The position numbers and the translations under genes were made by a program. A DNA stretch of 64,000 nt from contig NZ_JAEPPI010000001.1 of assembly GCF_017641085.1 (NCBI RefSeq), forward strand, positions 558,001 to 622,000, written 5' to 3'. Positions within the stretch are counted from its first letter, which is position 1. Every line of letters begins with the position of its first letter. Below the pieces are notes generated by a model, which saw nothing but the letters and a program-made list of their open reading frames with translations, ran no database searches and had not been told where the DNA came from. Source of the stretch: Gracilimonas sp. (GTDB taxonomy: Bacteria > Bacteroidota > Rhodothermia > Balneolales > Balneolaceae). Below are positions 43,604-64,000 of this stretch, piece by piece.

Positions 43604-44764
43604 CTACACCTTAATGATGATGTTCTTCTTTTTCATCCAGGCGGCGAGCAGGTAAAAGAGAACGATCCACATGATTGCATAAAGCAGGGAAGCGTTAATA
43701 GGTGAAGCTATGGAGGTGAGAACCACTTCGTAAATCCAACCTTTCAGGGTATAAGATTCCCCTCCGTATGAAAACCGGATCATGTTAAATACTCGGGCAA
43801 TAACTCCACTCAGGAAAAAGACGGTAATGGCATTAATTCCATAAGCCACGCCCCAGTCAGTAAATCGCTGTTTACTTTTTACATCAATAAACCAATAGCA
43901 TAAACCAAAAATACACATGGCCTGTCCGCCGGTAAATAAGGTGTAGGAGCTGGTCCAGATATTCTTGTTGACAGGGAAAACCCAGCTCCAGGCATAACCA
44001 AGTATGATGAGTATGAAGCCCCAAATGAAAAACTGTATGGTTCGCGAAGATTCGGATTCTTTATCACTCATCAACATTCGTCCCGTCCAGATTCCAATCA
44101 GGGTAGTTCCAATAGCCGGGAGCGTACTAAGCAAGCCTTCGGGGTCCCAGTTTTCCTTCCACATATGCCCGGAGAGTAGCAACTGATCGATATAGGCAGC
44201 AAGATTTCCTTCTGCGGTATCAATGGCTCCGGCTCCATAACCGGGAACGGGAATGGCCATCATCAAAATCCAGTAACCGATAAGGAGTCCGCCCAGCGTA
44301 AGCATTTGGGTTCTTGGTTTGGTGTAAAGGAACAGGAAAGCTCCCGCGGCATAGCAGATAGCAATTCGTTGCAGAACTCCAGGGATGCGAATATCAATCA
44401 GGTTTTGGTGGAGTCCGAAGTCCGGGATAAATGTAAGATAGGGAAAGGCGGAAAGGGCCAGTCCGAGGCCGAATATTTTTGCGGCCCGGATGAGCGTCTT
44501 TTTCAACAAATCAGAATCATCGGCACCTTTTGCCTTTGCTTTGGTAAAAGCCAGCACAATGGAAACGCCAACAATGAATAAGAAAAACGGGAATATGAGA
44601 TCGGTTGGCGTCCATCCATGCCAGGCCGCATGTTTTAAAGGTCCGTATATGTGTGACCATGATCCGGGGTTGTTAACCAAAATCATGGCGGCAACGGTAG
44701 CACCTCTGAAGAAATCGAGTGAAACAAGTCGTTTGCCTGATGAAATTCCGCTGAGAGTAGTCAT
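43604..44764 (-). CDS. HGSNAT/NagX-like multipass membrane acyltransferase (DUF5009 type)
   Basis: 386 aa from the ATG at 44764, where the family N-terminus begins (GKRLVSLDFFRGATVAAMILVNNPG). The frame is open to 44851 but the extra 29 residues look spurious. About ten membrane helices are present. Motifs include HGWTPTDLIFPFFLFIVGVS with the family histidine, GVLQRIAICY and LLSTLPAIGTTLIG. Relatives transfer acetyl groups to glucosamine across a membrane or support GlcNAc use. It is divergent from the BadF-type kinase by 100 bases, fitting an amino-sugar locus. Confidence 0.85.
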   Translation of the reverse strand: MTTLSGISSGKRLVSLDFFRGATVAAMILVNNPGSWSHIYGPLKHAAWHGWTPTDLIFPFFLFIVGVSIVLAFTKAKAKGADDSDLLKKTLIRAAKIFGLGLALSAFPYLTFIPDFGLHQNLIDIRIPGVLQRIAICYAAGAFLFLYTKPRTQMLTLGGLLIGYWILMMAIPVPGYGAGAIDTAEGNLAAYIDQLLLSGHMWKENWDPEGLLSTLPAIGTTLIGIWTGRMLMSDKESESSRTIQFFIWGFILIILGYAWSWVFPVNKNIWTSSYTLFTGGQAMCIFGLCYWFIDVKSKQRFTDWGVAYGINAITVFFLSGVIARVFNMIRFSYGGESYTLKGWIYEVVLTSIASPINASLLYAIMWIVLFYLLAAWMKKKNIIIKV

Positions 44765-44864
44765 AAAGAATATTTTGTGAACGCCAATAGTATAAAAAAA
44801 GAAACCAAAGTGGTAATGGAATAATGTGTTAAGTATCTTCGCTCCAATCAATTAAAATAGATGC

Positions 44865-45719
44865 ATGAACATACTGATAGCAGATAGTGGCTCCACTAAA
44901 ACGGAATGGATTTTAATAGATGATGAAGGGCATAAGGAGTATTTCCATACAGACGGGCTGAATCCCTATTTCATGTCGCTAGAGCAACTCATCCATGCCA
45001 TTGATGAGGGGCTGGCCCAGGTTTTGGAGAGTAAGCCCATTGATAAAATCTTTTTCTACGGAGCCGGCTGTGGGACAGAGAAGAGTAAGGAAGTCGTCAG
45101 AAAAGGAATCGCGGCCTGTTTCAGTAATGCTGAAATTCAGGTAGATACCGATCTGTTGGCAGCAGCTAAAGCCTGTTTCTGGGATAAGCCGGGTGTGGCT
45201 TGTATCTTGGGAACCGGGTCCAATTCTTGCATCTATGACGGGGAGAAGATAGTAAACAAGATCCCTTCATTGGGCTTTACGCTGGGTGATGAAGGCTCAG
45301 GCGGATACTTTGGGAAACGCATTTTGAGAAGTTACTACTATAACATTATGCCGGAAGATTTGAGGAATGAACTCGAGCAACGGCACGACATGAGGCTGGA
45401 TAACATCCTGGAAATGGTGTATAAAAAGCCGAATGGAAATCGGTTTGTGGCGTCCTTTTCACATCTGCTGGGGAATTTTGCTGATCATGATTTCATCAAG
45501 AATATTGTGCGGAGCGGTTTCGAAGATTTTGCCGATAAGCAGCTGGCCTACTTCGGGGACTTATCCGGTAAAGAAATCGGCTTTGTAGGATCTATTGCCG
45601 CCATTCACCGCGATACCCTTGAAAGCGTTTTATCAGAAAGAGGGCTGAATTTAAGCGTCATTGTCCGAAAACCAATTGAACGTTTGGTGGAGAACCATCT
45701 GAAAGAATCCAAGGCTTAA
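44865..45719 (+). CDS. BadF/BadG/BcrA-type sugar kinase (N-acetylglucosamine kinase-like)
   Basis: 284 aa with an ASKHA fold. The phosphate-1 loop is IADSGSTKTEW, with TDGLNPYF typical of the GlcNAc/MurNAc kinase branch in Bacteroidota. Then come YGAGCG, DTDLLAAAKACF, CILGTGSNSC (phosphate 2) and GFTLGDEGSGGYFGK. It should phosphorylate GlcNAc or MurNAc after hydrolysis by NagZ and NamZ. Cytoplasmic, no signal peptide. Neighbours are the NagX-like protein and NagZ. Confidence 0.88.
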   Translation: MNILIADSGSTKTEWILIDDEGHKEYFHTDGLNPYFMSLEQLIHAIDEGLAQVLESKPIDKIFFYGAGCGTEKSKEVVRKGIAACFSNAEIQVDTDLLAAAKACFWDKPGVACILGTGSNSCIYDGEKIVNKIPSLGFTLGDEGSGGYFGKRILRSYYYNIMPEDLRNELEQRHDMRLDNILEMVYKKPNGNRFVASFSHLLGNFADHDFIKNIVRSGFEDFADKQLAYFGDLSGKEIGFVGSIAAIHRDTLESVLSERGLNLSVIVRKPIERLVENHLKESKA

Positions 45720-45905
45720 AGGAAAGAAGAACCTCCAAGCGTCCGCTGTTAAATGAAACTCATCGATATCTAACCAGCCATATCCCCGCAACGCTTTCAG
45801 GACCTGTGGACGCTGAAAGGTTGCTCCGACTGTGTTGGGCGTTGCCTTTCTAAACTTGGTTTTTTTGAGTGGCATAAGACAGATGATCAAGGAGAAGTAA
45901 TCGGC

Positions 45906-46113
45906 AATAGCTCCGCCCTTCAGGGCGGGGTAGAAAAAGTAAAATGAAAAGCTTCGCCCTGATGTAGATTAAGTAAAATGGGTGTTCGAAGCTTTGGCTA
46001 TATGCCTTTAAAGTGGAAAGCCCAACCCTGCGATAAGCATCTAAACTTAATATCTATAGATGCTTGGGTTATTTTCAAATTTCATAATCCCCGTCTTGAA
46101 GGACGGAACTATT
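45906..46113. mobile_element. 208-bp structured repeat element with 25-bp terminal inverted repeats
   Basis: The ends 45906-45930 and 46089-46113 are inverted copies matching at 21 of 25 bases. Each end is itself a hairpin (CCGCCC-TTCA-GGGCGG on the left, CCGTC-TTGAA-GGACGG on the right); the four differences are transitions. Inside are two perfect 9-bp stems: AAAGCTTCG (45948-45956) with CGAAGCTTT (45987-45995), and AAGCATCTA (46035-46043) with TAGATGCTT (46057-46065), the latter extended by AACCC/GGGTT. No ORF. It resembles a non-autonomous hairpin-ended element of the IS200/IS605 or REPIN kind. The rest of the 45720-46144 spacer shows nothing else. Confidence 0.65.
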
Positions 46114-46144
46114 TTTATCATGAAACAGACTTTTGGGCTTGTTC

Positions 46145-47206
46145 TTAGAGCCTACCCTTCAGCTTCAAAATCCGGGACACAGATTCATCAATTCTTTCCT
46201 CCGAAATTTCTCCTTCCTCAACAAGTTGCTCCACGGCAGAAATGCAATCGTTGAGTTCCACCTGTTCTTTAAGCAGGTTGTTGCCAAAGCAGAAGATATC
46301 GAGGCCTGCTTTCAATCCTTCTTCCAGTGATTCTTTAAGGGAATAATGATCGGAAATGGCCCTCATCTGCATATCGTCAGAGATGATCACTCCGCTGAAA
46401 CCCAGGTTTTTTCTTAACAGATTCTTTAACACATTTCTCGAAAGGGTGGCAGGCACAACTTCATCCATATCATTATGGAAGATGTGTGCGGTCATAATCA
46501 TAGTGCAAAGTCCTTCATTAATTAACGCCTCATAAGGCTCCAGTTCATGTTCCTCCCACGTGTGTGTGATGTCAACGAAACCGGCATGGGTATCACCTTC
46601 GGCGCTGCCATGTCCGGGAAAATGCTTGCAACAGGTTTGTATGTTTTCCTGCTGATGCCCTTTGATGTAAGCTCGTGCATGCCGGGTTACTTTTTCCGGC
46701 GAAGACCCGAATGAACGTTCTCTCTTTGCAATGATGGAGCTGTCGGGGTTGGAGCTTAAATCAAGCACCGGGGCAAAATTGAGGTTAATACCGGCTTCAG
46801 ATAGTGTTTTGGCGATATGCCGGGAATGCAATTCAGTGTATTCTTCATCGTCTTTCTCACCTAACTTCTGATGGGAGATGGTTTCCGGGAAGCCGTACTC
46901 GGGCTTCAGCCGGTTTATGAGTCCGCCTTCCTGATCAATGCCAATTAAAAGAGGGGTTTCGGAAGAAGCTTGTAATGCTTTTGTAAGGCTGCGAACCTGT
47001 TCAGGCGACTTGATATTATGAACCGGTTGGTCATGAACCATATCTTTATCAAATAGAATAACTCCGCCCGGTTTGTGTTCTTTAATCATGTTCAGAACTT
47101 CCGAATCTTCAGATATGTCATTCCCCCTGAATCCCATTAAAAAAAGCTGGCCAATTTTTTCTTTAAGACTTAGTTCGCTTACGGTACCTAGGTTGCTGTT
47201 GGGCAT
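46145..47206 (-). CDS. nagZ: Glycoside hydrolase family 3 beta-N-acetylhexosaminidase (NagZ), cytoplasmic type
   Basis: 353 aa without signal peptide or sorting domain. NagZ motifs are EKIGQLFLMGFRG, GGVILFDKDM, LIGIDQEGGLINRL and KHFPGHGSAEGDTHAGFVDI, which carries the Asp-His catalytic dyad, then the nucleophile region GVIISDDMQMRAI. It removes GlcNAc from GlcNAc-anhydroMurNAc peptides in the cytoplasm. Its lack of signal contrasts with the sorted homolog at 62711. It is divergent from the NamZ-like gene, which starts 111 bases away. Confidence 0.92.
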   Translation of the reverse strand: MPNSNLGTVSELSLKEKIGQLFLMGFRGNDISEDSEVLNMIKEHKPGGVILFDKDMVHDQPVHNIKSPEQVRSLTKALQASSETPLLIGIDQEGGLINRLKPEYGFPETISHQKLGEKDDEEYTELHSRHIAKTLSEAGINLNFAPVLDLSSNPDSSIIAKRERSFGSSPEKVTRHARAYIKGHQQENIQTCCKHFPGHGSAEGDTHAGFVDITHTWEEHELEPYEALINEGLCTMIMTAHIFHNDMDEVVPATLSRNVLKNLLRKNLGFSGVIISDDMQMRAISDHYSLKESLEEGLKAGLDIFCFGNNLLKEQVELNDCISAVEQLVEEGEISEERIDESVSRILKLKGRL

Positions 47207-47316
47207 GTGCTTGAAGGGGTTTCTATTTTTTACAAGTAGTAATCATTCGTGCCTGAAGTTCAGGTTGAGAATGTATAACTTCAACAGCTTAAAATGAAAA
47301 AAAGATCACTCTTATT

Positions 47317-48561
47317 ATGATGAAAAAAGCTCTGCTCGTTCTGCTGGTAAGTTTTTTGGGATATTCAAACGGCTTCACTCAGCATACTAACCAAGTTAAA
47401 ACCGGAATTGAAGTGTTGGCTGAAAACAACTTCGAATTATTGAAAGGAAAAAGAGTTGGAGTTATCACTAACGCCACCGGAGTCAATGCTGATCTTGTAT
47501 CTACTGTGGATCTTATTTACAACGCTCCGGGTGTGGAGCTCACGGCTTTATACGGGCCGGAACACGGGGTAAGAGGAGAGTTCGCCGCCGGTGACAAGGT
47601 TGATACCTATGTGGATGAAGCAACCGGTGTAACCGTGTTTTCACTATATGGAGCAACCCGCAAGCCAACTCCGGAAATGCTGGAGAATGTGGATGTGCTG
47701 GTTTATGATATTCAGGACATCGGCGTTCGTTCGTACACCTACATCAGTACAATGGGGCTGGCCATGGAAGCTGCCGCAGAGCATGACCTTGAGTTTGTGG
47801 TGCTCGACCGTCCCAATCCACTGGGTGGAGAAAAGGTGGAAGGCAATATTGTGGAAGAAGGATATTTTTCTTTTGTGAGTCAGTTTCCGGTTCCCTATAT
47901 CTATGGGCTTACTCCGGGTGAAGTAGCCAAAATGATCAACAAAGAAGGCTGGCTGGCTAATGGCAAACAATGTAATCTTACCGTTGTGGAAATGGAAGGC
48001 TGGAACCGCTCTATGACCTTTGACGAAACGGGATTGCCCTGGGTGCCCACATCACCGCATATTCCGCATGAGTATTCCGCTTACTTTTATGTGGCCACAG
48101 GTATTATGGGAGAGTTGGGAGTATTCTCGGAAGGTGTTGGATATACGCTTCCTTTCCAGGTGTTTGCCGCCGAGTGGATTGATGAAGGTGAGCTTGCCGA
48201 CCGCATGAATGCCCTGGATATACCGGGAGTGGTATTTCGCCCCATTGTTTTTAAGCCTTTTTATGGAAGAGATCAGGGCAAGACCTTACATGGTGTTCAG
48301 ATTCATTTCAGCGACTACACGCAAGCTCATTTGATGAAGCTACAGTTCTGGTTTATGCAGGTTCATAAAGAAATGTATCCGGACAAGGATGTTTTTGAAA
48401 TGGGCAAAAACCGATGGAGTATGTTTGAGAAAGTAACCGGAACCGATCAAATACGTAAGCGGTTCAGCCAAAATTATAAGGTTTCAGACATCTCGGAATA
48501 CCTTTCCAAAGATATAGCCTCCTTCAAAGAGAAATCACAAAACTATTATCTATACAAGTAA
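47317..48561 (+). CDS. DUF1343 exo-beta-N-acetylmuramidase (NamZ-like)
   Basis: 414 aa with signal peptide (about 1-22, ending NGFTQ). Family motifs are GKRVGVITNATGVN, LYGPEHGVRGEFAAGDKV, VYDIQDIGVRSYTYISTM, VVLDRPNPLGG and LPWVPTSPHIP. NamZ of this family removes terminal MurNAc from peptidoglycan fragments. Predicted periplasmic. The amidase gene follows after 3 bases, so they form one unit: strip peptides, then release MurNAc. Confidence 0.9.
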   Translation: MMKKALLVLLVSFLGYSNGFTQHTNQVKTGIEVLAENNFELLKGKRVGVITNATGVNADLVSTVDLIYNAPGVELTALYGPEHGVRGEFAAGDKVDTYVDEATGVTVFSLYGATRKPTPEMLENVDVLVYDIQDIGVRSYTYISTMGLAMEAAAEHDLEFVVLDRPNPLGGEKVEGNIVEEGYFSFVSQFPVPYIYGLTPGEVAKMINKEGWLANGKQCNLTVVEMEGWNRSMTFDETGLPWVPTSPHIPHEYSAYFYVATGIMGELGVFSEGVGYTLPFQVFAAEWIDEGELADRMNALDIPGVVFRPIVFKPFYGRDQGKTLHGVQIHFSDYTQAHLMKLQFWFMQVHKEMYPDKDVFEMGKNRWSMFEKVTGTDQIRKRFSQNYKVSDISEYLSKDIASFKEKSQNYYLYK

Positions 48562-48564
48562 TTC

Positions 48565-50424
48565 ATGAAGTATTTAAGTTTATTAGCCGCCTTTCTGGTT
48601 GTACAGTTTACTCCACAAAACCTGCAAGCCCAGGTCGATTCTGTCAGGGTTGATACGGTACAGGCCGACACTACCATCGCAGTCAGCGATTCTCTTTACC
48701 TGAATATTGTTATTCCTGAAACCGATACGGTTACCTACAGTTTTTCGCGATATCGTGTTGCAGCTAACACGAACCCCGCTGCAAATGCGTATATAAACGG
48801 GAAGCCGGTGAAGGTGTACGAAAGCGGTGCATTCATTGATATGATGGGGCATCGGTCGGATACCACCGAAATAGAATTCAGAGTAGAACTGAACGGCGAG
48901 GAACTGACCAAAACCATGTACCTGGTACGTCCGGAGTCTCCGGAACCATTAGATACCAAGGGAAATGTAATTTCTGACCGGATGATGAAACCATCCAGCG
49001 AGCTTTGGCTGGTAACCGGAGAAACACTGGACGTGCAATTTTTGGGTTCGCCCGGAAAAGAAGTGGTCTTCAATATCGATTACTTCAAGAATAATATCCC
49101 CATGAAAGAAGTACCCGAAGAAATTGCCGGTATTGAAGGACTTTATAAAGGAAGCTACACCGTGAAACCCGGTGACAAGGTAAGGGACAAACATATCACC
49201 TTTAAAATGAAAAAGGGTTTGTTCGGGTATGAGAAGAAAAAAAGTGAATATACCGTCAGTTTTAACAACTTCTCCCGCGTTGCGGAAGTGATGGATGAAA
49301 ATGCCTACCTGAACATTGGCATGGGTACCGACCGCCTCGGAGGAGCTCGTTATGGCTCCCTTGAACCGGGAGTAAAACTCAATATCACCGGTCGCAAAGC
49401 CGATAATTACCGGGTACAGTTATCCAAAAGCCTGAGCGCCTGGATACCGGTTCGGTTTGTTGAACTTCAGAATGAGTACACTCCCCCGGCCACATCCCTT
49501 ACAGGAAATATCAGGGTGTCGGGCAGAGATAAATCAGATATGATTTCGCTCACGCTTTCTCAAAAACTGCCGTATATCACCTACCAGGAGCTGGAACCGA
49601 ATGTAATTATTGTTGATGTATTTGGGGCTACGTCCAACACCAACTGGAAGATTAAGCACAACAGTTCACAAGGCATCAAAAATGTAACCTGGAATCAGGT
49701 TGAGGATGATCGTTTCCGGCTGGAGATTGAGCTGAATCACAGCCAAAACTGGGGATATACCGTAGGGTACGGCTGGGGTTCTCAGCTGAATGTGGAAGTA
49801 AAAAGGCCTCCGGTTGTTACCAATTTCAATAGTCCGCTCGACGGCAGAACCATTTCGGTTGATGCGGGTCATGGCGGTGACAATCGCGGATCCTTAGGAG
49901 CTGCGGGGAATCTTGAAAAGGATGTTACCCTGAAGCTGTCTTACCTGGTGAAAGAGCTGCTCGAGGAAAGGGGAGCCAAGGTGGTACTACCCCGAACCGA
50001 TGACAGCTATGTGTATATGAGCGAGAGAAAAGAGATCACTATTGAGGAAGATGCAGACCTGCTCGTCAGTATTCACACAAATTCAATTGGGTATGGAAGT
50101 GATCCGCTTGATGTGAGGGGAACCGGTTCTTTCTACAAGCATATCGCCTTTAAACCGCTTGCCGCTATTATGTATGATAAGATGATGGAGCTGGGCTTTA
50201 AAGACTACGGGCTGACCGGTAGTTTTAACTTCTCCCTGAATGCACCCACTGAGTTTCCGAATGTATTGGTAGAAACGGCTTTTATTTCAAACCCGGAAGA
50301 GGAAATATTATTAACTGATCCGGATTTCCAGCAGAAAATTGCTGAACAAATTGTGAAGGGACTCGAAGAGTTTTACCTGCAGCACGGATACCTTGAAACG
50401 GTGTCAGATATGCCTGATAAATAG
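48565..50424 (+). CDS. N-acetylmuramoyl-L-alanine amidase (AmiC type) with SH3-like and AMIN-like N-domains
   Basis: 619 aa with signal peptide (about 1-22, ending NLQAQ). An unassigned beta-rich region precedes an SH3-like module (about 245-305, AYLNIGMGTDRLGG, SAWIPVRFVEL) and an AMIN-like beta-sandwich (about 312-415). The amidase_3 domain covers about 425-610 (ISVDAGHGGDNRGSLGA, LVSIHTNS, PNVLVETAFISNPEEE) with zinc ligands and the catalytic Glu present. It cuts stem peptides from MurNAc. No sorting domain. Three bases after the NamZ-like gene. Confidence 0.92.
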   Translation: MKYLSLLAAFLVVQFTPQNLQAQVDSVRVDTVQADTTIAVSDSLYLNIVIPETDTVTYSFSRYRVAANTNPAANAYINGKPVKVYESGAFIDMMGHRSDTTEIEFRVELNGEELTKTMYLVRPESPEPLDTKGNVISDRMMKPSSELWLVTGETLDVQFLGSPGKEVVFNIDYFKNNIPMKEVPEEIAGIEGLYKGSYTVKPGDKVRDKHITFKMKKGLFGYEKKKSEYTVSFNNFSRVAEVMDENAYLNIGMGTDRLGGARYGSLEPGVKLNITGRKADNYRVQLSKSLSAWIPVRFVELQNEYTPPATSLTGNIRVSGRDKSDMISLTLSQKLPYITYQELEPNVIIVDVFGATSNTNWKIKHNSSQGIKNVTWNQVEDDRFRLEIELNHSQNWGYTVGYGWGSQLNVEVKRPPVVTNFNSPLDGRTISVDAGHGGDNRGSLGAAGNLEKDVTLKLSYLVKELLEERGAKVVLPRTDDSYVYMSERKEITIEEDADLLVSIHTNSIGYGSDPLDVRGTGSFYKHIAFKPLAAIMYDKMMELGFKDYGLTGSFNFSLNAPTEFPNVLVETAFISNPEEEILLTDPDFQQKIAEQIVKGLEEFYLQHGYLETVSDMPDK

Positions 50425-50658
50425 AAGAGGTGTTTGGTAATAAGTAATAGAGTCCTTAAATAATGAGAGTTAGATGAGTAAGAATAAGCTTCCGCTTTCG
50501 TCCGACCGCTTTAGGAAAGAGTTTAAATTAGCAATACAAGGTTTGGCGGCCTGTCGATTAGAACAGGCATAAGTTAAGACTTAATCTCGTAACGATGCTC
50601 CGTCTCTAAATAAGTGCGTTTCTATCTTAAATTCATTCTTGCCAATTACTTAACATCC

Positions 50659-50673
50659 TGAGGCTCAGCCTCA
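50659..50673. repeat. Perfect 15-base palindrome TGAGGCT-C-AGCCTCA
   Basis: Lies in the 322-bp spacer between two convergent amidase genes (50425-50746), 6 bases before the terminator-like hairpin at 50680. No other feature is recognised in the rest of that spacer. Confidence 0.6.
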
Positions 50674-50679
50674 CAACCG

Positions 50680-50710
50680 GGTGCCGCAGCAGAGCGGCGG
50701 CACCTGTTTT
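50680..50710 (+). terminator. Terminator-like hairpin between convergent amidase genes
   Basis: Perfect 8-bp GC-rich stem GGTGCCGC (50680-50687) and GCGGCACC (50697-50704), followed by TGTTTT. The T-run is short and the upstream stop is 255 bases away, so function as terminator is only likely. Confidence 0.5.
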
Positions 50711-50746
50711 AAATGAATAATTAGGGTATCTAAGCTGCCGGGTTCT

Positions 50747-53251
50747 TTATTTAAGCAGAGTCATTTTCTTGGAAATGGTACCCGACTTCGTAACCAATCG
50801 ATAGATATACACTCCACTTGATAGTCTTGAAGCGTCAAACTGAATAGTATGAAACCCTTTTGATTTGACCCCGGAGTAAACGGTGGCTACTTCCCGTCCC
50901 AGCATGTCGTAGATCTTCAGGTTAACGTCACTCTGTTGGGGCAATCCAAAACTGATGTTAGTGGAAGGGTTAAATGGGTTCGGATAATTCTGCTTCAGCT
51001 CAATTTGGTTGGGTACATCTGAAAGAAGCTCATCATTGGGTTCGTTTGAAGTAGCGAGCCCCATCTCAACCGCTCTGAGATCATCAAATACAATAAAACC
51101 TTTTGTTGGCTGCCCGTCGGTGTAGGTCATCTGAAAGCTGTCCAAATACAGGTTTCCATTCAGCGTTCCGTTCCCATTTACCCATGCAACCACGCTGTCT
51201 TGAGTGAGGTCCCATGAAACCAATTTCCAGCCCAACCAATCTACAGTGTACCAGGAACTCCCTTCGAGCTCTCCATTGCCGTCGCGAAGCATGAACCTGA
51301 ATTTATTGCCATTCCCATCACCGAATACATAGGTTTGAAGAACAAGATCATTAGTGAACTTAGGAGTAGTGACACTGCCACGATATTGACGAATAAGGTT
51401 TGCAGTGCTGGTAGTATCCCAGCCGTAATTCACCCTCATAGACTGACTGCTGTTAGTCAAAAGGTTGACTTCAGCGGTGCTGATTTCCAGGCTGGTTTCT
51501 TCGGGGATATAACCGTCCGTGCTTCCGCTTTGAGAGGGCTCCCACCAGGCTGAAATTCCATCTTCAAAATCATCAACAACGGTTTCATTTATAATGTCCT
51601 GATCTCCGGTAGGGAAGGTTCGTACTACATCAGATCCGAGACTGTTTCCAACCGTATCACTGATCGATTTGGAGAACGTGAGGGTGTAATTCCGGGATTT
51701 ATCGAGTCTCTCGGAAGGGAAGAAGTTAAGTACACTTCGATTACCTATGGTATAATAAACGGTTTCACCGAGAACGGTGTAGTCGCTTTTGCTCACTTCG
51801 ATGGTTTTGTTATCAAAAAGTGCGGTATCCAGTGGCTCATCAAAAGTGGCGCTAATGATAGGCCGGAGTTCGTTCAGTTGGGTATTGGTTGGGCGAATAT
51901 CAGAAATAGCCGGAGGAATAATATCGACCGGACCGGTCTCGAAGGCAACGGTGTAAGAATCACCCTGCGTGCCATCGGCATTGCCGTCAATGTTATGAGC
52001 ATAGGATGATTTGTCGGTTGCCGTAGAATCAATTGTAAGGGTGTAACTGCTTTCAAAGTCAAAATTAGCCGTGGAAATACTCAGCTTCTTATCTGAATTC
52101 CACGTGAGGGTATAGTCGGCTTCAGGCGTGAGGGATAAGGCATTTTCTACCGCAGTTCGATCCATAGACCGGCTGAAATTGAGTACGAGTGCTTCCCCGG
52201 GATTAATCTCATCGTCATCCCCAATGGAAGTAGATGCCACAAAGGGAGGGATGTTTGAAACCAATGCCACATCGGTAAAGGTGAAATCGGTAGAAATGAT
52301 GTTGGTATCAACGGTATCAGTGTAAAATCCTTCCGCTTCAACAATGATTTGAGCGGGCCCGTTTTCGAGGTCTTCTATATAGTAAAAACCGTTTTGCAAG
52401 TCGCCGGGGTTTGCAGCGTAATTGTTGAACAGGGATTCAAAAGTATCGGTGGTATAGGTAGAATCGCCAACTGATACAACGGCCCCATTAACTGGAAGCC
52501 CGCCATCAGCATCGGTGATGTACCCGGTAGCAATGCCAACCGGAGGTCGTTCCACATCCAGGTAGTCCAGAATAGACCAGAAAAAGGATTGTGCTTCCAG
52601 TCGCTTCCAGTCCGCATTTAAGTTTCGTTTTTGCTGGGTAGGATTTGTATGAAATCCGGCTTCACTCAATACAGAAGCCATGTTGGTTGTTCTGTTTACA
52701 AAGAGGTACGGGAACTGATTGCTGTGATTATCAACAGAGCTGCCCTGATAGAAATTACGATCGGCCCAATTCCCGATGGTAGGTATCCGCATGGCATCGG
52801 TGAGCTCAATTTCCATAATGTCGCCCATTTCTTTTCCTCCGTTCGGAGTTTTCTCAACGGTTTGTCCATTTGAACGCCAACCGCCATGTAGAAACAATGT
52901 GTTGTTTGCAGTATTTGAGCCTGCGTTGCTGTGAATGGAGTGAAAGAAGTCGGCACCGGTTGCGTTGGCAAGATCATCTCTCTGAGACAGAGGAACCTGC
53001 TGAGAATCACTTGTCCGGCTAATGTACACGGTGTCGATGTCGGTTTGGGTGAGCAGCATTTCACGAAGAGCCAGCCCTACACGAAGTACTTTCTCAGCTT
53101 CCGAATAGTTGTAAAGTCCCATGTTTTCCGTTTGGCTGTGCCCCGGATCAAGAAAAATAGAAAAGCCTTCGAGTCCTGTTACGGTCTGGGCTTTAACCGG
53201 GGCCGTACTTAAAAGTGCTGCAAATGCTAAAAGGGATAGAAAATACTTCAT
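50747..53251 (-). CDS. Secreted N-acetylmuramoyl-L-alanine amidase with Ig-like domains and type IX sorting domain
   Basis: 834 aa with signal peptide (about 1-21, ending PVKAQ). The amidase_3 domain covers about 28-235 (FSIFLDPGHSQTENMG, FHSIHSNAG, ASVLSEAGFHTNPTQQ). A carboxypeptidase-regulatory-like module (about 240-335), two Ig-like domains of the big-5 type (about 335-560) and a carbohydrate-binding-like sandwich (about 565-740) follow. The end is the sorting module (KQNYPNPFNPSTNI, SKKMTLLK). It would act on peptidoglycan outside the cell, unlike the AmiC-type neighbour. Lies 43 bases after the TolB-like gene on the same strand. Confidence 0.88.
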   Translation of the reverse strand: MKYFLSLLAFAALLSTAPVKAQTVTGLEGFSIFLDPGHSQTENMGLYNYSEAEKVLRVGLALREMLLTQTDIDTVYISRTSDSQQVPLSQRDDLANATGADFFHSIHSNAGSNTANNTLFLHGGWRSNGQTVEKTPNGGKEMGDIMEIELTDAMRIPTIGNWADRNFYQGSSVDNHSNQFPYLFVNRTTNMASVLSEAGFHTNPTQQKRNLNADWKRLEAQSFFWSILDYLDVERPPVGIATGYITDADGGLPVNGAVVSVGDSTYTTDTFESLFNNYAANPGDLQNGFYYIEDLENGPAQIIVEAEGFYTDTVDTNIISTDFTFTDVALVSNIPPFVASTSIGDDDEINPGEALVLNFSRSMDRTAVENALSLTPEADYTLTWNSDKKLSISTANFDFESSYTLTIDSTATDKSSYAHNIDGNADGTQGDSYTVAFETGPVDIIPPAISDIRPTNTQLNELRPIISATFDEPLDTALFDNKTIEVSKSDYTVLGETVYYTIGNRSVLNFFPSERLDKSRNYTLTFSKSISDTVGNSLGSDVVRTFPTGDQDIINETVVDDFEDGISAWWEPSQSGSTDGYIPEETSLEISTAEVNLLTNSSQSMRVNYGWDTTSTANLIRQYRGSVTTPKFTNDLVLQTYVFGDGNGNKFRFMLRDGNGELEGSSWYTVDWLGWKLVSWDLTQDSVVAWVNGNGTLNGNLYLDSFQMTYTDGQPTKGFIVFDDLRAVEMGLATSNEPNDELLSDVPNQIELKQNYPNPFNPSTNISFGLPQQSDVNLKIYDMLGREVATVYSGVKSKGFHTIQFDASRLSSGVYIYRLVTKSGTISKKMTLLK

Positions 53252-53294
53252 AATGCCGTGTGTGGATGGTTGCTGATTGATTATACGGGATGAA

Positions 53295-54254
53295 TTAATA
53301 GCTGATATTCAGGATGTAAATACTTCCATCATCGGGGCTGTCGAAGGCTATTTGGTCACCTTGAGGAGACCAGTCAGGGTTCATAGCTATTATATCCGTT
53401 GATGAAGTCAGGTTAATTCGCTCTTCTCCATCAATGCTCAAAGCATATAGGTCTGATTTGGTGTAGTTGTGTCCGTCATCTTCGGCAACCATCGCCACCA
53501 GGTATTGACTGTCGGGCGACCATTTTGCCCGGTTAGCTTTACCCAGATCCATAAGGTTGGTACCGTCAATATTCATTACGAATAAGTTGCCCCCGTACAC
53601 TTCAAAGGCCAGTTTTTTACCGTCCGGCGATACTTCCAGGTTCAGGTATTGGGCATCATCAAAAGGGGAGATATTCTCGGTGCTGTTTTCCGGGACTTTA
53701 CCTTTAGCAATCTGGTTCGACTTCAATACATAAAAAGGTTTGGTGACCGAAGCTTTTTGCTGGGTAGAAATTTCTTTGCCAGAGTCGAACGATTCAATAT
53801 CATTATCAGAAATAAGCACTACCTGCCGGTCATAATTGGCCCACTTTGGAATGGTTGGCATTTGATCTCTGAACTCAGTCAGCTGCTCAGGTTCTTTGCC
53901 ATTGGTGTGGTAAATCTTAACAGCGAGTTTTCTTCTTTTATTCTGAAACTCTGAAACCCGGGTCAAAATAGATTCGGAATCAGACGACCATGAGAAGCCG
54001 TACCCGGCCGATTCATCTGTAATCTGCTGCATGTTTGAACCGTCCGTATCTGCTATCCAAAGTCCCTGCTGCCGCGATGAAGTGAAAGCTATTTTGGTTC
54101 CGTCAGGTGACCAAACCGGGTTCATAAAATCAGAACCTTCCACACTTATCAATTTTTGTGGATTTCCATTCGGAGCTGGCTGAGCAATGGCTGTTACGGA
54201 TAAAGTAATCACCAGCAGAAGGGAGGTGATTATAGATGATATAGAAGAGTTCAT
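53295..54254 (-). CDS. TolB-like WD40/PD40 beta-propeller protein
   Basis: 319 aa from ATG 54254, chosen because the signal peptide (MNSSISSIITSLLLV...AIAQ) begins there; the frame is open to an ATG at 54284. Four to five PD40 repeats are seen (NPVWSPDGTKIAFTSSR, GFSWSSDSESILTR, LEVSPDGKKLAFEVYG, AKWSPDSQYLVAMV, NPDWSPQGDQIAFDS). Periplasmic or surface propeller that may bind proteins or glycans. It precedes the sorted amidase in the same direction and is probably co-transcribed. Confidence 0.82.
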   Translation of the reverse strand: MNSSISSIITSLLLVITLSVTAIAQPAPNGNPQKLISVEGSDFMNPVWSPDGTKIAFTSSRQQGLWIADTDGSNMQQITDESAGYGFSWSSDSESILTRVSEFQNKRRKLAVKIYHTNGKEPEQLTEFRDQMPTIPKWANYDRQVVLISDNDIESFDSGKEISTQQKASVTKPFYVLKSNQIAKGKVPENSTENISPFDDAQYLNLEVSPDGKKLAFEVYGGNLFVMNIDGTNLMDLGKANRAKWSPDSQYLVAMVAEDDGHNYTKSDLYALSIDGEERINLTSSTDIIAMNPDWSPQGDQIAFDSPDDGSIYILNISY

Positions 54255-54392
54255 ATTTTGGATTTTAAACGATTTACAGATCATAGTGGAGTAGGTAAAA
54301 ATGATGGAATTAGCTGTAAGATGCTACAAGGGAGCGCCTTAAAGATTTTATTCTTTGTAAAACTATCTTGTTGTAAAAACAGGTTTCGATGA

Positions 54393-55697
54393 TTAATTAT
54401 TCTCTGCTTCCTGCTTGTCTTTTTTCTTTCCAAAGTCAGGATCGATATCTACAAACTTTGTTACAATAAAAATCGGGATAGTGGCAATCATCACCCAGAT
54501 AAAGAAGTCGAGGTAGCCCAGCCATTCCTGCATAAAACCACTGATAGAGCCGGGGATCAACATACCAAGGGCCATAAACCCGGTTCCGAAAGCGTAATGT
54601 GCTGTTTTATTCTCGCCGCGGGCTATATAAATCAGAAACATCAGGAAAGCAGCGAAGCCAAATCCATATCCAAATTGTTCAATGGCTACAAAAGCACTGA
54701 TTAAAGTATAGGATTCCGGTTGGAAGTAGGCCAGAATCACATATACCAGGTTGGGCACGTTCATAGCAATAAGCATAGGCCAGAGCCAGTATTTAAGTCC
54801 TTTTCTTGAAATAACCACACCGCCGATAATGCCACCGATGGTCAGGGCAATCACGCCTATGGTTCCATAGATAAATCCTAAATCGGAAGTGGAGAGGCCT
54901 AGTCCTCCGGCATTAATTTCATCCAAAAAGAAAGGAGGCCCCATTTTCACGAGCTGACCTTCCGCAAACCGGTAAAACAGGATAAAAGCAAGCGCTACCC
55001 AGATTTGTTTCTTCTTAAAGAAATCGATGAATACTTTGAAAAAAGCTGCCAGTTGTTCTTTGGGGCTGTCATATTCTTCGGCATAGTCACCGGCAGGCTT
55101 GGGAATAGAAAGGGTGTGGTAGAGGGCAAAAACCGTCATAACCACAGCCAGGATACCAAAGGTTACGGCCCAGGCATAATCTACATCGGTTCCGCTTTCA
55201 ATCAGGTAACCGGCTAAAATAACCAGCGCCCCTTTACCGCTTATTATGGCAATGCGATAGAAGGTAGATCGGATCCCCACAAAAAAGGATTGCTTCTCTT
55301 CATTAAGGGCAATCATATAAAAACCGTCTGCGGCTATATCATGGGTTGCGGAAGCCAGGGCCAGCAGATAAAGCACGATAAGGCTAAAGGCAAAGAAAGA
55401 AGGAGTGAGCAATACAAGAGCCACGCCGGCAAAGGCGGCTCCCATCACAAACTGCATCCCTATGGTCCACCAGCGCTTGGTTTTGGTGTTCTCTACCAGT
55501 GGACTCCAGAATGGCTTAATAATCCACGGCAGGTACAGCAAACTGGTGTATAAACCAATCTCGGCATTAGAGATGTCAAGGTTTTGATACATGATTACCG
55601 AAACCTCTACCACCATGATGTAGGGAAGTCCCTGAGCGTAGTAGAGAGAAGGAATCCAAAACCATGGATTCTCTTTTAGCTTAGCTATTAAATTCAT
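54393..55697 (-). CDS. Major facilitator superfamily permease, AmpG-like
   Basis: 434 aa with about twelve membrane helices. AmpG-type features are YYAQGLPYIMVVEVSVIMY in helix 1, SLLYLPWIIKPFWSPLVE, and ATHDIAADGFYMIAL. AmpG imports GlcNAc-anhydroMurNAc peptides into the cytoplasm, where NagZ acts. Its place among amidases, NagZ and the NagB-like fusion supports a muropeptide permease, though related carriers move other ligands. The nearest upstream gene, the NagB-like fusion, ends in a terminator, so this gene probably has its own promoter. Confidence 0.83.
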   Translation of the reverse strand: MNLIAKLKENPWFWIPSLYYAQGLPYIMVVEVSVIMYQNLDISNAEIGLYTSLLYLPWIIKPFWSPLVENTKTKRWWTIGMQFVMGAAFAGVALVLLTPSFFAFSLIVLYLLALASATHDIAADGFYMIALNEEKQSFFVGIRSTFYRIAIISGKGALVILAGYLIESGTDVDYAWAVTFGILAVVMTVFALYHTLSIPKPAGDYAEEYDSPKEQLAAFFKVFIDFFKKKQIWVALAFILFYRFAEGQLVKMGPPFFLDEINAGGLGLSTSDLGFIYGTIGVIALTIGGIIGGVVISRKGLKYWLWPMLIAMNVPNLVYVILAYFQPESYTLISAFVAIEQFGYGFGFAAFLMFLIYIARGENKTAHYAFGTGFMALGMLIPGSISGFMQEWLGYLDFFIWVMIATIPIFIVTKFVDIDPDFGKKKDKQEAENN

Positions 55698-55753
55698 ATG
55701 CCGATGTTGATTTCATGGTTAAGCTTCAAAATGTCGAAGTCGGAATTATAGGT

Positions 55754-55788
55754 AAAAAAAAAGCGAAAGAAATATTTCTTTCGCTTTT
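55754..55788 (-). terminator. Rho-independent terminator after the NagB-like fusion gene
   Basis: A perfect 30-base palindrome (AAAAGCGAAAGAAAT and its complement, 55759-55788). On the minus strand it is followed by a run of T (complement of 55754-55762). It starts 16 bases after the NagB-like stop and separates it from the AmpG-like gene. Confidence 0.9.
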
Positions 55789-55803
55789 AAATGTTTAAAA
55801 ATG

Positions 55804-57738
55804 TCAATCCAGCTCTTTCCAGCGCACGAAGGCTTCCATGGCTTCGTACTCAGCCAGCCCCAGCTTGTCGTAGAGTTCGGCGGTGCCGCGGGTTCGGTCA
55901 TCGGCACGCTGCCAGAATTCCCGCTTGTCGGTTCCGGGGAACAGAGGTCGGTCTTTCTGCGACTGATGCTTGAAGATGGCTTTACGCTTGCGGTCTGTTT
56001 CTTCGGGGCTGAGTGGCACTGCCATTTCAATGTCCTCAATATCCCATTCCTGCCAGGCACCGCGGTATAACCACGTCCAGCATTCTTGCATCCACGGCTC
56101 ATCCTTCAGTTCACGCAAAGCGGTGAAAACAGCATCCAGACACACCCGGTGCGTACCGTGCGGATCGGATAAGTCGCCCGCTGCATAAATCTGATGGGGT
56201 TTCACCTGCTGTATAATATTTTTAGTGATCTCAATGTCTTCCGGGCCAATAGGCTTTTTACGCACTTTCCCTGTTTCATAAAACGGAAGATCCAGGAAGT
56301 GCATGTTCTCATCGGGGATGCCCACATACCGACAGGCTGCTTTCGCCTCTCCGCGTCGAATCATTCCCTTAATGGTTTTCACTTCATCGGAATCCACTTC
56401 GCCGGGTTTCTTATTCTTGATGGAAGCTCTTACTTCCTCAAAAAGCTCAGCTGATTCTTCATTCTCCAATCCAAAACTTTCGTGGTAATCGGTTACGAAA
56501 TCGGCAAAACGAATGGCTTCGTCATCAAAAACGGCGATGTTACCCGACGTCTGATAGGCTACATGAACTTCATGTCCCTGATCCACCAGGCGGATAAAAG
56601 TACCGCCCATTGAAATTACATCGTCATCCGGGTGGGGACTGAAAATAAGCACGCGTTTTTTAGCCGGTGATTTTCGTTCCGGACGGTAGGTGTCGTCTTC
56701 GTTGGGTTTTCCGCCGGGCCATCCGGTAATGGTATGCTGAATCTCGTTAAAAATGCGGATGTTCACATTGTAAGCGCGGCCAATGTCAATCAATACATCG
56801 TTCATGCCATGCTCACTGTAATCTTCATCCGTAAGCTTGAGGATTGGTTTCTCCAGATAGAGGCTTAACCATACCACCGCTTTTCTAAGCAGCTCGTCTG
56901 TCCAGTCAATAGGGCCGACCAGCCACGGAGTTTTGGTACGTGTAAGTTCTGCCGAAGAAGCATCATCGAGGAGGAATTCTACGTTCTCGTGCTTTTGAAG
57001 GAAGGTAGCCGGAATCTGGCTGGTGATGTCCCCTTCAATAGCCTTTTGAACAATCTTAGCCTTGCCTTCGCCCCAGGCCATCAGGAAGATGCGGTCGGCT
57101 TTCATAATAGTTCCAACCCCCATGGTGATGGCGCGACGGGGAACATTTTCAACACCAAAGAATCCACTGGCGGCATCTAATATCGTCAGGCTGTCTAAAG
57201 CAATGAGGCGGGTTTTAGAATTGATGGATGAACCGGGCTCATTAAAGCCAACGTGACCGGTTCGCCCGATACCCAGAATCTGGATATCCAATCCGCCAAG
57301 GGCATCAATTTTCTCTTCGTATTTTTGGCAAAAATCGTACACGTCTTCCCGATCCAGTGTACCATCGGGGATGTGGATATTTTCTTCTTTGATGTCCACA
57401 TGGTCAAAGAGATACTCGTGCATAAAATGGACATAACTGTGAATGGAGTCCGGCTCCATCGGGTAGTATTCGTCCAGGTTGAAGGTGACTACATTCTCAA
57501 AACTCAGCCCTTCCTCTTTATGCATCCGCACCAGCTCATCATACAGCTGCGTTGGAGTGGAACCGGTTGCAAGTCCCAGGACTGCTTGCTCACCTTTGGC
57601 CGCTTTATCTCGTATCAGTGAAACAATTTCATCAGCGGCATATTTAGAAGCAATTTTGGCCGTATCAAAAACTTTGGTAGGCACTTTCTCATACTTTTCA
57701 AACTCAGGGCGGATGAGTGGAGTAGAAGACATAAACAA
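55804..57738 (-). CDS. NagB-like glucosamine-6-phosphate deaminase fused to a PIG-L deacetylase domain
   Basis: 644 aa. Residues about 20-270 are the NagB fold (GLATGSTPTQLYDEL, FNLDEYYP with Asp89, GIGRTGHVGFNEPGSS with His162 and Glu167). Thr160 stands where E. coli NagB has the catalytic Asp141. Residues about 360-600 are a PIG-L/LmbE zinc deacetylase domain with both zinc motifs, HPDDD (369-373) and DPHGTH (525-530). A link region lies at 275-355. The pair suggests deacetylation of a GlcNAc-6-phosphate-like sugar followed by deamination/isomerisation to fructose-6-phosphate; no nagA is in the window. It is followed by a terminator. Confidence 0.88.
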   Translation of the reverse strand: MFMSSTPLIRPEFEKYEKVPTKVFDTAKIASKYAADEIVSLIRDKAAKGEQAVLGLATGSTPTQLYDELVRMHKEEGLSFENVVTFNLDEYYPMEPDSIHSYVHFMHEYLFDHVDIKEENIHIPDGTLDREDVYDFCQKYEEKIDALGGLDIQILGIGRTGHVGFNEPGSSINSKTRLIALDSLTILDAASGFFGVENVPRRAITMGVGTIMKADRIFLMAWGEGKAKIVQKAIEGDITSQIPATFLQKHENVEFLLDDASSAELTRTKTPWLVGPIDWTDELLRKAVVWLSLYLEKPILKLTDEDYSEHGMNDVLIDIGRAYNVNIRIFNEIQHTITGWPGGKPNEDDTYRPERKSPAKKRVLIFSPHPDDDVISMGGTFIRLVDQGHEVHVAYQTSGNIAVFDDEAIRFADFVTDYHESFGLENEESAELFEEVRASIKNKKPGEVDSDEVKTIKGMIRRGEAKAACRYVGIPDENMHFLDLPFYETGKVRKKPIGPEDIEITKNIIQQVKPHQIYAAGDLSDPHGTHRVCLDAVFTALRELKDEPWMQECWTWLYRGAWQEWDIEDIEMAVPLSPEETDRKRKAIFKHQSQKDRPLFPGTDKREFWQRADDRTRGTAELYDKLGLAEYEAMEAFVRWKELD

Positions 57739-61559: not shown

Positions 61560-62054
61560 ATGGATATTTTTCAGATTACACTGATTCTTGCCACCTTTTT
61601 TTGTTCGGTGGTTGGTGGTTTTTTAATGGCTTTTTCCATTGTGGTAATGCCGGGTATCAAAAACCTTAATGACGGAGAATTTATCCGGGCATTTCAGGCT
61701 ATCGACCGGGTCATTCAAAACGGTCAGGCGCTATTTATGATATTTTGGGTAGGTTCGATTATTGCTTTGGTTGTCACGGCCGTATTAGGGGTGGGAGAAC
61801 TGGATACAACAGGTTGGGTTTTTATGATCCTTGCCATTGCTACTTACTTTCTTGGTGTTCAGTTACCAACTGTCCGCATCAATATTCCCCTGAATGATGC
61901 TTTACAAATGCTGGATGTAGATGAGATGGACGAAGAAGAACTACAAACCGCCCGCACTAATTTTGAAGAGAAGTGGGTAAAATGGAATATCATTCGAACG
62001 GCTTTCTCCAATATTACGGCATTGTTGCTTATCCTATTACTTTTCTTACTCTAA
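61560..62054 (+). CDS. Four-helix membrane protein of the DUF1772 type
   Basis: 164 aa with four membrane helices (about 7-28, 55-78, 86-104, 140-160). The N-terminal GGFLMAFSIVVMPGI, with FIRAFQAIDRVIQNG, matches the DUF1772/anthrone-oxygenase-like family. The helix-3 end carries GVQLPTVRINIPLNDALQ. Enzyme activity is not shown for most members. Stands alone. Confidence 0.75.
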   Translation: MDIFQITLILATFFCSVVGGFLMAFSIVVMPGIKNLNDGEFIRAFQAIDRVIQNGQALFMIFWVGSIIALVVTAVLGVGELDTTGWVFMILAIATYFLGVQLPTVRINIPLNDALQMLDVDEMDEEELQTARTNFEEKWVKWNIIRTAFSNITALLLILLLFLL

Positions 62055-62710: not shown

Positions 62711-64000
62711 TTATTTGATGAGCATCATTTTGTGCACCTGACGGGTTTCCGGAGTACTCACCACTACGAGGTACATGCCGGAGCTGAGGCTTCTTCCGTC
62801 AAAAGTAAAGTTATGCACACCTGATGAGAGCTGTGTTTGGGCAAGTGTTTGCACCCGCTGACCAATGGAGTTAAAGACTTGTACCTGTACCTGACTGGAC
62901 TGATCTAAAGACACCGTAATGGTAGTGGAAGGGTTAAAGGGGTTCGGGTAGTTGGCGATGTCAACCTGATCGGGAAGCTCCTGCGGTTCATAATCCACTT
63001 CGTTACTGGTTGGGATGCGGGTATCCTTCAGAGTCATAATGCGATTATAAGAAGCGGTGATGGTGGCTTCATCAATAACGCCGGCTTCTACTTTTTCTGA
63101 AATGAGTGAGATGATATAGGCCGGAAGGGATTTGTCCTGATACAAATTGGTGTTGAACAAAAGAATGTCTGTGTCAGAATTCACCACCTGAACAATGGCT
63201 TCATCCATTCCGTAATTTTCCTGAACGGCGCCCATAAAAAGCTCATCGGAAATCACAACCCCGTTAAATCCAAGGCTGTCTCTCAGAATGTCGGTGACGG
63301 CATAGGAAGAGAGGGAGGCCGGGTAGTCTTCATCCCAATTTTGATTAAATAGATGTCCGGTCATAACGGCATCGTTGTATCCATCTTCAATAAGAAAACG
63401 GAAAGGGTCGAGTTCACGGTCTTCCCATGTGTCGGTGATGTCGGTAAACCCTTCATGGGAGTCAGATACAGCGCTTCCATGACCGGGAAAATGCTTGAGT
63501 GAGGTGGTAATATTTTGTTTATGAAACTCATCCACAAACCAGGAGGCATGTTGATAAACAACCTGTTCATCCGTCGAAAAACTGCGATCCAGTCCGCCTA
63601 TAGCCGGGCTGTTGGGATCAACATTTACATCCACTACCGGTGCCAGGTTCATGTTTAACCCGGTATTCGCCATCCAGCCGGCCATTAGCGCGGCCTGCTT
63701 TCGTGTGGAATCTTCGGAATTAAATTCGGTGCCCAGTTTATGTGCCGAGAAAGTTCGCTCAAAGCCGTTTTGCTCATCAAGGCGGGCTACAATACCGCCT
63801 TCCTGATCTGTGGCCAGAAATAAAGGGGTGTCTGCCAGTCCTTGAAATCTCGAATTTTGGCTGCGTATCTGGCTGGGAAAACGAAGGTTATATGCGAACA
63901 ACAACACCCCGCCCAGGTTTCGGTGCTCGATGTCATACTTCAAAGAATCCTGGTGTTCCTGGCTGGTTTCAACGCCAACCATAATCATCTGGCCAATTTT
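62711..64000 (-). CDS. Secreted NagZ-like GH3 N-acetylhexosaminidase with type IX sorting domain (5' end outside window)
   Basis: The frame continues to the window edge: residues KIGQ lie before the first in-frame ATG at 63988 and complete the NagZ motif KIGQMIMVG, so the start and signal peptide are beyond base 64000. 430 codons are visible. Motifs are GGVLLFAYNL, FLATDQEGGIVARL, KHFPGHGSAVSDSHEGFTDI with the Asp-His dyad, and GVVISDELFMGAV. The last ~85 residues are a sorting domain (IANYPNPFNPSTTI, GIYLVV-like strand SGMYLVVVS, HKMMLIK). It would remove terminal GlcNAc outside the cell. It is a homolog of the cytoplasmic NagZ at 46145. Confidence 0.9.
   Translation of the reverse strand, partial: KIGQMIMVGVETSQEHQDSLKYDIEHRNLGGVLLFAYNLRFPSQIRSQNSRFQGLADTPLFLATDQEGGIVARLDEQNGFERTFSAHKLGTEFNSEDSTRKQAALMAGWMANTGLNMNLAPVVDVNVDPNSPAIGGLDRSFSTDEQVVYQHASWFVDEFHKQNITTSLKHFPGHGSAVSDSHEGFTDITDTWEDRELDPFRFLIEDGYNDAVMTGHLFNQNWDEDYPASLSSYAVTDILRDSLGFNGVVISDELFMGAVQENYGMDEAIVQVVNSDTDILLFNTNLYQDKSLPAYIISLISEKVEAGVIDEATITASYNRIMTLKDTRIPTSNEVDYEPQELPDQVDIANYPNPFNPSTTITVSLDQSSQVQVQVFNSIGQRVQTLAQTQLSSGVHNFTFDGRSLSSGMYLVVVSTPETRQVHKMMLIK

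Follow-up and report, generated by a model that had tools for sequence, protein, structure and literature searches.

A NagB–PIG-L fusion protein of Gracilimonas as a candidate deacetylase/deaminase of recycled wall sugars in Bacteroidota

What does a protein do that joins a glucosamine-6-phosphate (GlcN-6-P) deaminase domain, NagB, to a PIG-L (LmbE-like) zinc deacetylase domain, and in which a threonine occupies the place of Asp141 of Escherichia coli NagB? The question is raised by a gene of Gracilimonas sp., family Balneolaceae (assembly GCF_017641085.1, contig NZ_JAEPPI010000001.1, positions 558,001 to 622,000 of the forward strand; this entire stretch of 64,000 nucleotides is called the window here, and all positions refer to it). 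The gene occupies positions 55804..57738 on the minus strand, and an earlier note, made from the DNA sequence without database searches, had described it as a NagB–PIG-L fusion. The evidence presented below suggests that the protein is, on balance probably, a bifunctional N-acetylglucosamine-6-phosphate (GlcNAc-6-P) deacetylase and GlcN-6-P deaminase that serves the salvage of amino sugars from peptidoglycan and chitin, with the PIG-L half replacing NagA; GlcNAc-6-P is assigned to the PIG-L half from gene content only.

The open reading frame (ORF) encodes 644 amino acids from a TTG start codon, and an ATG two codons further in is the likelier start. A Pfam search identifies the NagB domain (PF01182, Glucosamine_iso, 84.7 bits) in residues 30-251 (56986..57651, minus) and the PIG-L domain (PF02585, 69.2 bits, cut-off 28.2) in residues 364-540 (56119..56649, minus). 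The NCBIfam model NF002557 (PRK02122, "glucosamine-6-phosphate deaminase-like protein") has the same two-domain layout and is matched at full length (1074.5 bits, cut-off 384; model positions 24-652 of 653), so that both the fusion and the family to which it belongs have an entry already, in agreement with the view of the earlier note that the fusion itself was not new and that long NagB forms are known in Bacteroidota; the model, however, provides only a name, and its description assigns no deacetylase reaction. The NagB half meets the equivalog cut-off of TIGR00502 (264.8 vs 236.9 bits). There is no match to TIGR00221 (NagA) at E<=0.001, and TIGR04001 (BshB1) scores 32 bits, missing its cut-off of 182.5. 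The nearest named homologue found, a protein from a Balneola metagenome-assembled genome (MAG), is 82% identical. A fold search with the AlphaFold2 model (mean predicted local distance difference test score, pLDDT, 87.5) places the NagB half closest to 2bkv, the monomeric NagB of Bacillus subtilis, with a template modelling (TM) score of 0.96-0.97 on target length. The fusion is a real feature, not a chance one, and a trait of the family that is not peculiar to the gene in the window.

For E. coli NagB we assume the numbering Asp72, Asp141, His143 and Glu148 and the customary roles of these residues, with Asp72 as the catalytic base. Relative to the allosteric E. coli enzyme (1dea/1cd5), the protein has the pattern reported in the earlier note: Thr160 (codon 57259..57261) stands in the place of Asp141, whereas Asp89 (57472..57474), at the place of Asp72, and His162 and Glu167 (57238..57255, all on the minus strand), at those of His143 and Glu148, are kept; the E. 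coli protein also differs in having no fusion partner. By alignment, no Asp substitutes for the missing one elsewhere in the NagB loop. The same position was compared among long forms, as proteins with this two-domain layout are called here, from 296 genomes of the phylum; residue and motif counts apply to the retrieved loci rather than to every copy in these genomes, and the 241 rows include some loci twice, identical domains having been removed for the set of 230. Among the 230 distinct NagB domains, position 160 is occupied by T (133), N (64), S (30), V (2) or R (1), and never by D. In the 241 rows, the place of Asp72 holds Asp in 228, that of His143 holds His in 237 and that of Glu148 holds Glu in all 241; the site is complete in 228.

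The position also varies among solved stand-alone deaminases. Asp is found in the human (1ne7) and Haemophilus influenzae (7lqn) enzymes, and Asn in those of B. subtilis (2bkv) and Streptococcus mutans (2ri0 and 2ri1), all three entries being named GlcN-6-P deaminase; Thr160 pairs with Asn in 2bkv and with Asp in 7lqn. The B. subtilis enzyme (2bkv/2bkx) is the best match of the NagB half both by sequence and by fold and likewise lacks Asp at 141, but has no PIG-L half and carries Asn where the fusion has Thr. The Asn of two solved deaminases, those of B. subtilis and S. mutans, shows that Asp141 is neither required nor defining, and since T, S or N is the family rule at a position that varies among deaminases, the change alone is no argument for new chemistry. 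Judged by these alignments, Thr160 is ordinary for the long-form family and not an oddity of this gene. A study of the Giardia enzyme, in the part available, lists E. coli Asp141 among the residues that bind the allosteric activator (PMC4281351), which would fit a regulatory role of the position.

These observations bear on the suggestion, also made in the earlier note, that with the loss of the Asp the NagB half may have shifted to another reaction; candidates would be another sugar phosphate as substrate, a lactonase or a sensor. The complete lack of Asp among the 230 domains and the existence of duplicated copies with altered loops (FNES for FNEP) are compatible with such a shift. The Asn of known deaminases and the TIGR00502 score speak against it, as do two results given below, namely that no zwf gene is detected in the host and that the half decays where a stand-alone NagB is present, as expected if the two share one job. 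The suggestion is thus unsupported, and we consider a shift improbable.

The fate of the NagB half in other genomes bears on what each half does. It is degenerate in 11 genomes: seven of the group f12, two of the group f45, Marinilabiliaceae JC017 and one Cyclobacteriaceae MAG. The long forms of all seven sampled f12 genomes carry A, S or N in place of Asp72; the PIG-L motifs are unbroken in all six complete genes, the retrieved locus of G246 stopping inside the gene, which is probably cut by the contig end. A stand-alone NagB that retains Asp72, His143 and Glu148 is encoded in every f12 genome, and nagA is detected in none of the seven at E<=1e-40. In the two f45 genomes, Asp72 is replaced by Tyr and His143 by Asn; here, too, a stand-alone NagB is present and nagA is not detected. 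JC017 has Met in place of Asp72 as well as a stand-alone NagB; the long form of the Cyclobacteriaceae MAG has a broken glycine loop and is adjoined on the opposite strand by a stand-alone NagB; in neither of these two genomes is nagA found at E<=1e-20. Altogether, a stand-alone NagB is present in 11/11 of these genomes, nagA is detected in 0/11 and PIG-L is unbroken in 10/10 readable copies. Of the remaining 82 long-form genomes in which nagA is not detected, between 10 and 29 have a stand-alone NagB. The simplest reading of decay alongside a stand-alone NagB is that the two NagB forms are equivalent in function and that the PIG-L half performs a task which is still needed. A long form with a broken NagB loop, beside which a stand-alone NagB is transcribed divergently, is recorded at L281 (G309) and L240.

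A broader proposal, which in our judgement could equally well hold or fail, is that the PIG-L half is a non-orthologous GlcNAc-6-P deacetylase unrelated to NagA, that the fusion is the normal exit for recycled wall sugars in many Bacteroidota, and that in lineages with a stand-alone NagB the NagB half was free to decay, the protein being retained for its deacetylase. A tree of NagB domains, built from 119 of 240 distinct domains (filtered at 80% identity, with 16 rows retained by name) with column 160 excluded, recovers the long forms as one clade (Shimodaira–Hasegawa-like approximate likelihood ratio test, SH-aLRT, 99), with 40/116 inner branches open, a long outgroup branch and a root placed by choice. 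T at position 160 is widespread in this tree, S falls mostly in one 14-row group and N mostly in one 28-row group.

The PIG-L half keeps both zinc motifs, as the earlier note had it: HPDDD in residues 369-373 (56620..56634, minus) and DPHGTH in residues 525-530 (56149..56166, minus), the defining motifs of the PIG-L/LmbE family being taken as HPDD(E/D) and HxxH. The motifs are unbroken in 232/241 long-form rows. The only solved relatives identified by sequence are chains of the diacetylchitobiose deacetylase type (27-31 bits over ~48 residues); the first match in the PDB by sequence as well as by fold is the Pyrococcus diacetylchitobiose deacetylase Dac (8bgo), a member of the PIG-L family that, in contrast to the fusion, stands alone and, according to the entry title, was crystallised with unphosphorylated diacetylchitobiose. 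Degenerate PIG-L copies carry HPADD (L111, L112, L113 and L115), which presumably means loss of the general base, or Asn in place of His527 (L059, L132 and L229; L219 and L147 are the same gene as L059). PIG-L decay in genomes with nagA, which would be mirror evidence, was looked for and not found, the degenerate copies having no clear link to nagA. The four HPADD copies are second fusion copies, all in a single genus of the window's family, and their NagB site is unbroken.

A regulatory or structural pairing, in which one half would regulate its partner in response to GlcNAc-6-P and a single half would be catalytically active in the cell, would be in line with the allosteric activation of E. 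coli GlcN-6-P deaminase by GlcNAc-6-P, as stated in the accessible text of PMC4008608, and with the presence of one degenerate half in some family members. Both sites are mostly complete across the rows counted above, which argues against such a pairing, the least likely of the explanations considered.

The host genome, 98.4% complete, contains no second PF01182 gene, so that the fusion is its sole member of the NagB family. The earlier note had pointed out that no nagA lies nearby; this is correct, and a search of the whole genome with TIGR00221 (cut-off 225.65 bits) likewise detects none, yielding 18 matches that are all fragments of 20-31.5 bits. The 14 ORFs behind these fragments, when scanned with NCBIfam, comprise 13 amidohydrolases and one unrelated ORF; within the limits that the B. 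subtilis control described below sets on this search, a hidden nagA was rejected, given that the 13 amidohydrolases reach at most 59 bits with TIGR00221 and all have some other model as their best match, one of them being HutI with 454 bits. NagA catalyses the same reaction as is proposed for the PIG-L half but belongs to the unrelated amidohydrolase family. A single murQ gene is present (376 bits). No zwf gene is detected in the host genome, hence there is no evident need of a 6-phosphogluconolactonase, and this role of the NagB half is unlikely. Four PIG-L genes are found, namely the fusion, BshB1 and two uncharacterised ones. BshB1, the GlcNAc-malate deacetylase of bacillithiol synthesis, shares the PIG-L family with the fusion but is a separate gene (257 bits, cut-off 182.5), with a best stretch of 35% identity over 48 residues; the bacillithiol role is thereby already taken and is unlikely for the fusion. 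Of the other two (labels read from the ORFs), one is BshB1-like (60 bits) and lies beside a wecB-like gene and one has an apparent signal peptide; both may also be amino-sugar deacetylases.

Across the 296 genomes, with nagA defined as TIGR00221 over its cut-off (six candidates per genome being scored) and murQ as a match at E<=1e-30, the fusion (NF002557 over cut-off) is present in 120, nagA in 42 and murQ in 212. The murQ gene accompanies the long form in 119/120 genomes, compared with 93/176 genomes that lack it. Of the 120 long-form genomes, 97 lack nagA over the cut-off and 91 have no match even at E<=1e-40, these absence counts being upper limits. In the window's family, the fusion is absent from 8/36 genomes (G159, G278, G293, G042, G069, G077, G081 and G175), and all eight keep murQ; searches for nagA at E<=1e-40 and for nagB at E<=1e-30 find nothing in them either, which looks as though both functions resided in the fusion. 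Fisher tests on these co-occurrences overstate the evidence because the species are related.

The neighbourhood of the gene in the window is compatible with wall-sugar salvage. A group of such genes spans ~14 kb (43604-57738) on both strands. Downstream of the fusion and on the same strand follow an AmpG-like permease of the major facilitator superfamily (54393..55697, minus; TIGR00901 170.6 bits, cut-off 350), a TolB-like beta-propeller protein (53295..54284, minus) and an N-acetylmuramoyl-L-alanine amidase, assigned with Pfam, with a type IX secretion system (T9SS) sorting tail (50747..53251, minus), separated by gaps of 106, 108 and 43 bp. Further away are a cell-wall amidase with Amidase_3 and AMIN domains (48565..50424, plus; Pfam), the exo-beta-N-acetylmuramidase NamZ (47317..48561, plus; PF07075 286 bits, PF20732 140 bits), a GH3 NagZ-like beta-N-acetylhexosaminidase (46145..47206, minus; PF00933 251 bits, PRK05337 188.4 bits, below the cut-off of 207), a BadF-type sugar kinase that is a candidate kinase of N-acetylmuramic acid (MurNAc) or GlcNAc (44865..45719, plus; PF01869 40 bits, cut-off 31.5) and a NagX-like membrane glucosamine N-acetyltransferase (43604..44851, minus; PF07786 48 bits, NF046061 190 bits, below the cut-off of 480). 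Given the scores below the curated cut-offs, the names AmpG, NagX and NagZ apply at the family level only. Elsewhere in the window, a second GH3 NagZ-like protein (62711-63988), which may extend beyond the window end, is probably exported, judging from its T9SS sorting tail, and a small membrane protein (61560-62054) has a match below the cut-off to ChrI, a chryseobasin maturation helper (92 of 275 bits).

Comparable contexts occur across the phylum. Neighbourhoods were counted at 206 of 211 long-form loci, the window included and some loci represented twice; 30 of them have flanks of 1.5 kb only, neighbour clusters were named from scans of one or two members each, and ROK is a reading of unscanned ORFs. 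At least one marker of amino-sugar metabolism or wall recycling lies near the fusion in 89/206 loci and at least two in 27/206: GH20 in 21, NagP-like in 21, AmpG-like in 19, NagX in 18, GH3 in 14, MurQ in 14, AnmK in 13, ROK in 10 and BadF in eight. The TolB-like gene is found in the flanks of 10/206 loci and the T9SS amidase in 8/206. In nine loci (L045, L068, L133, L134, L173, L186, L192, L193 and L208), AmpG-like, GH3 and MurQ genes all lie beside the fusion, five of them also with AnmK, and none of the nine genomes has nagA over the cut-off (G182 has a sub-cut-off match of 201 bits). In G219 (L152), the two halves are adjacent separate ORFs. A set of paralogues (L050, L056, L057, L062, L064, L066, L067, L071, L075, L076 and L078) has GNGH (ANGH in L062) together with FNES replacing FNEP; several lie near NagP-like, phosphotransferase-like and nucleotidyltransferase-like genes, and they perhaps belong to a different amino-sugar pathway.

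Under the bifunctional reading, imported wall sugars would be phosphorylated by the BadF-type kinase, or by AnmK in relatives, and MurQ would convert MurNAc-6-P to GlcNAc-6-P, which the PIG-L half might then deacetylate to GlcN-6-P (the NagA step) for the NagB half to deaminate to fructose-6-P and ammonia. Thr160 would stand for the Asp that in E. coli NagB adjoins the catalytic His, that Asp being presumably dispensable for the reaction. The order of steps, the compartment and any channelling are part of this conjecture; the protein is probably cytoplasmic. A similar route, murT–murK–murQ with AmpG, operates in Tannerella forsythia, and the available text of two papers on it (PMC5790795, PMC7670621) covers the BadF-family (PF01869) kinase, MurQ and AmpG steps proposed here; the main text of neither paper contains the words "NagA", "NagB" or "deacetylase". 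There, MurK is described as a BadF-family MurNAc kinase acting upstream of MurQ (PMC5790795, in part), which supports the assignment of the BadF kinase in the window. The order MurQ–NagA is stated in the accessible portion of PMC13041923. The idea of deacetylation followed by deamination in one chain, put forward in the earlier note, thus gains support from gene content, that is, from the undetected nagA, the salvage neighbours, the AmpG/GH3/MurQ loci and the lineages with a decaying NagB half; the PIG-L substrate is the part that stays conjectural.

Several observations weigh against it. The groups f45 and JC017 are adjacent in the tree (SH-aLRT 91) and may represent one event, so that NagB decay is counted as three or four events. 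The TIGR00221 control missed B. subtilis, neither exceeding the cut-off nor matching at E<=1e-40, so that a divergent nagA may be overlooked, hence the upper limits given above; the NagA of B. subtilis is known, 2vhl being presumably its structure. Neither nagA nor the fusion is found in 72/212 murQ genomes, which means that MurQ does not demand the NagA step; murQ is present in 36/36 genomes of the window's family, fusion or not, and clades with neither gene inflate the association of murQ with the fusion. The PIG-L motifs are unbroken in 30/32 copies retrieved from genomes with nagA over the cut-off, so that this half is not retained solely where NagA is missing, and in G146, where nagA is undetected, the sole PIG-L copy has His527 changed to Asn. 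To these are added the two further PIG-L genes of the host and the solved relatives that act on diacetylchitobiose.

Part of this evidence points to an ordinary deaminase in the NagB half combined with a PIG-L half that acts on a different amino sugar (free GlcNAc, MurNAc-6-P, a disaccharide or some other precursor) and deacetylates it either ahead of the NagA step or alongside it. The diacetylchitobiose relatives and their unphosphorylated sugar, the intact PIG-L half in nagA genomes, G146 and the retention of murQ without the fusion leave room for a substrate other than GlcNAc-6-P, and the NagX-like N-acetyltransferase gene in the same cluster means that free glucosamine may be handled. Against this stand the separate BshB1 of the host, which takes the bacillithiol role, the MurQ product, GlcNAc-6-P, which is already phosphorylated, and the nine AmpG-like/GH3/MurQ loci in genomes without nagA over the cut-off. 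The missed B. subtilis control and the possible single event of f45 and JC017 make the bifunctional reading less likely, and a different PIG-L substrate more likely, than they would otherwise be; we regard such a substrate as possible and the GlcNAc-6-P deacetylase as the better candidate.

Published work offers partial points of contact. In Flavobacterium johnsoniae, according to the accessible text of PMC5127042, deletion of the chitin-locus nagB, Fjoh_4557, leaves chitin utilisation unaffected, three more nagB-like genes being noted; attempts to express the protein in E. coli failed, and a NagA is predicted at another locus. A F. johnsoniae strain of our sample (L197) has both the long form and nagA. 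A survey of gut-glycan use, in the part available, based its annotation of nagA on clustering and joint occurrence with nagB, and named replacements for other steps (PMC5583593). Searches of the open-licence literature, covering mostly titles and the beginnings of abstracts, gave no paper recognisable as a test of the NF002557 family or as a proposal of PIG-L as a substitute for NagA.

If the proposal is correct, the gap that follows MurQ in peptidoglycan recycling would be filled for many Bacteroidota in which NagA is not detected, and the Asp of the NagB loop would be shown to be dispensable. The PIG-L superfamily would gain a substrate in central metabolism, and the annotation "glucosamine-6-phosphate deaminase-like", which concerns 120/296 sampled genomes of the phylum, would be corrected.

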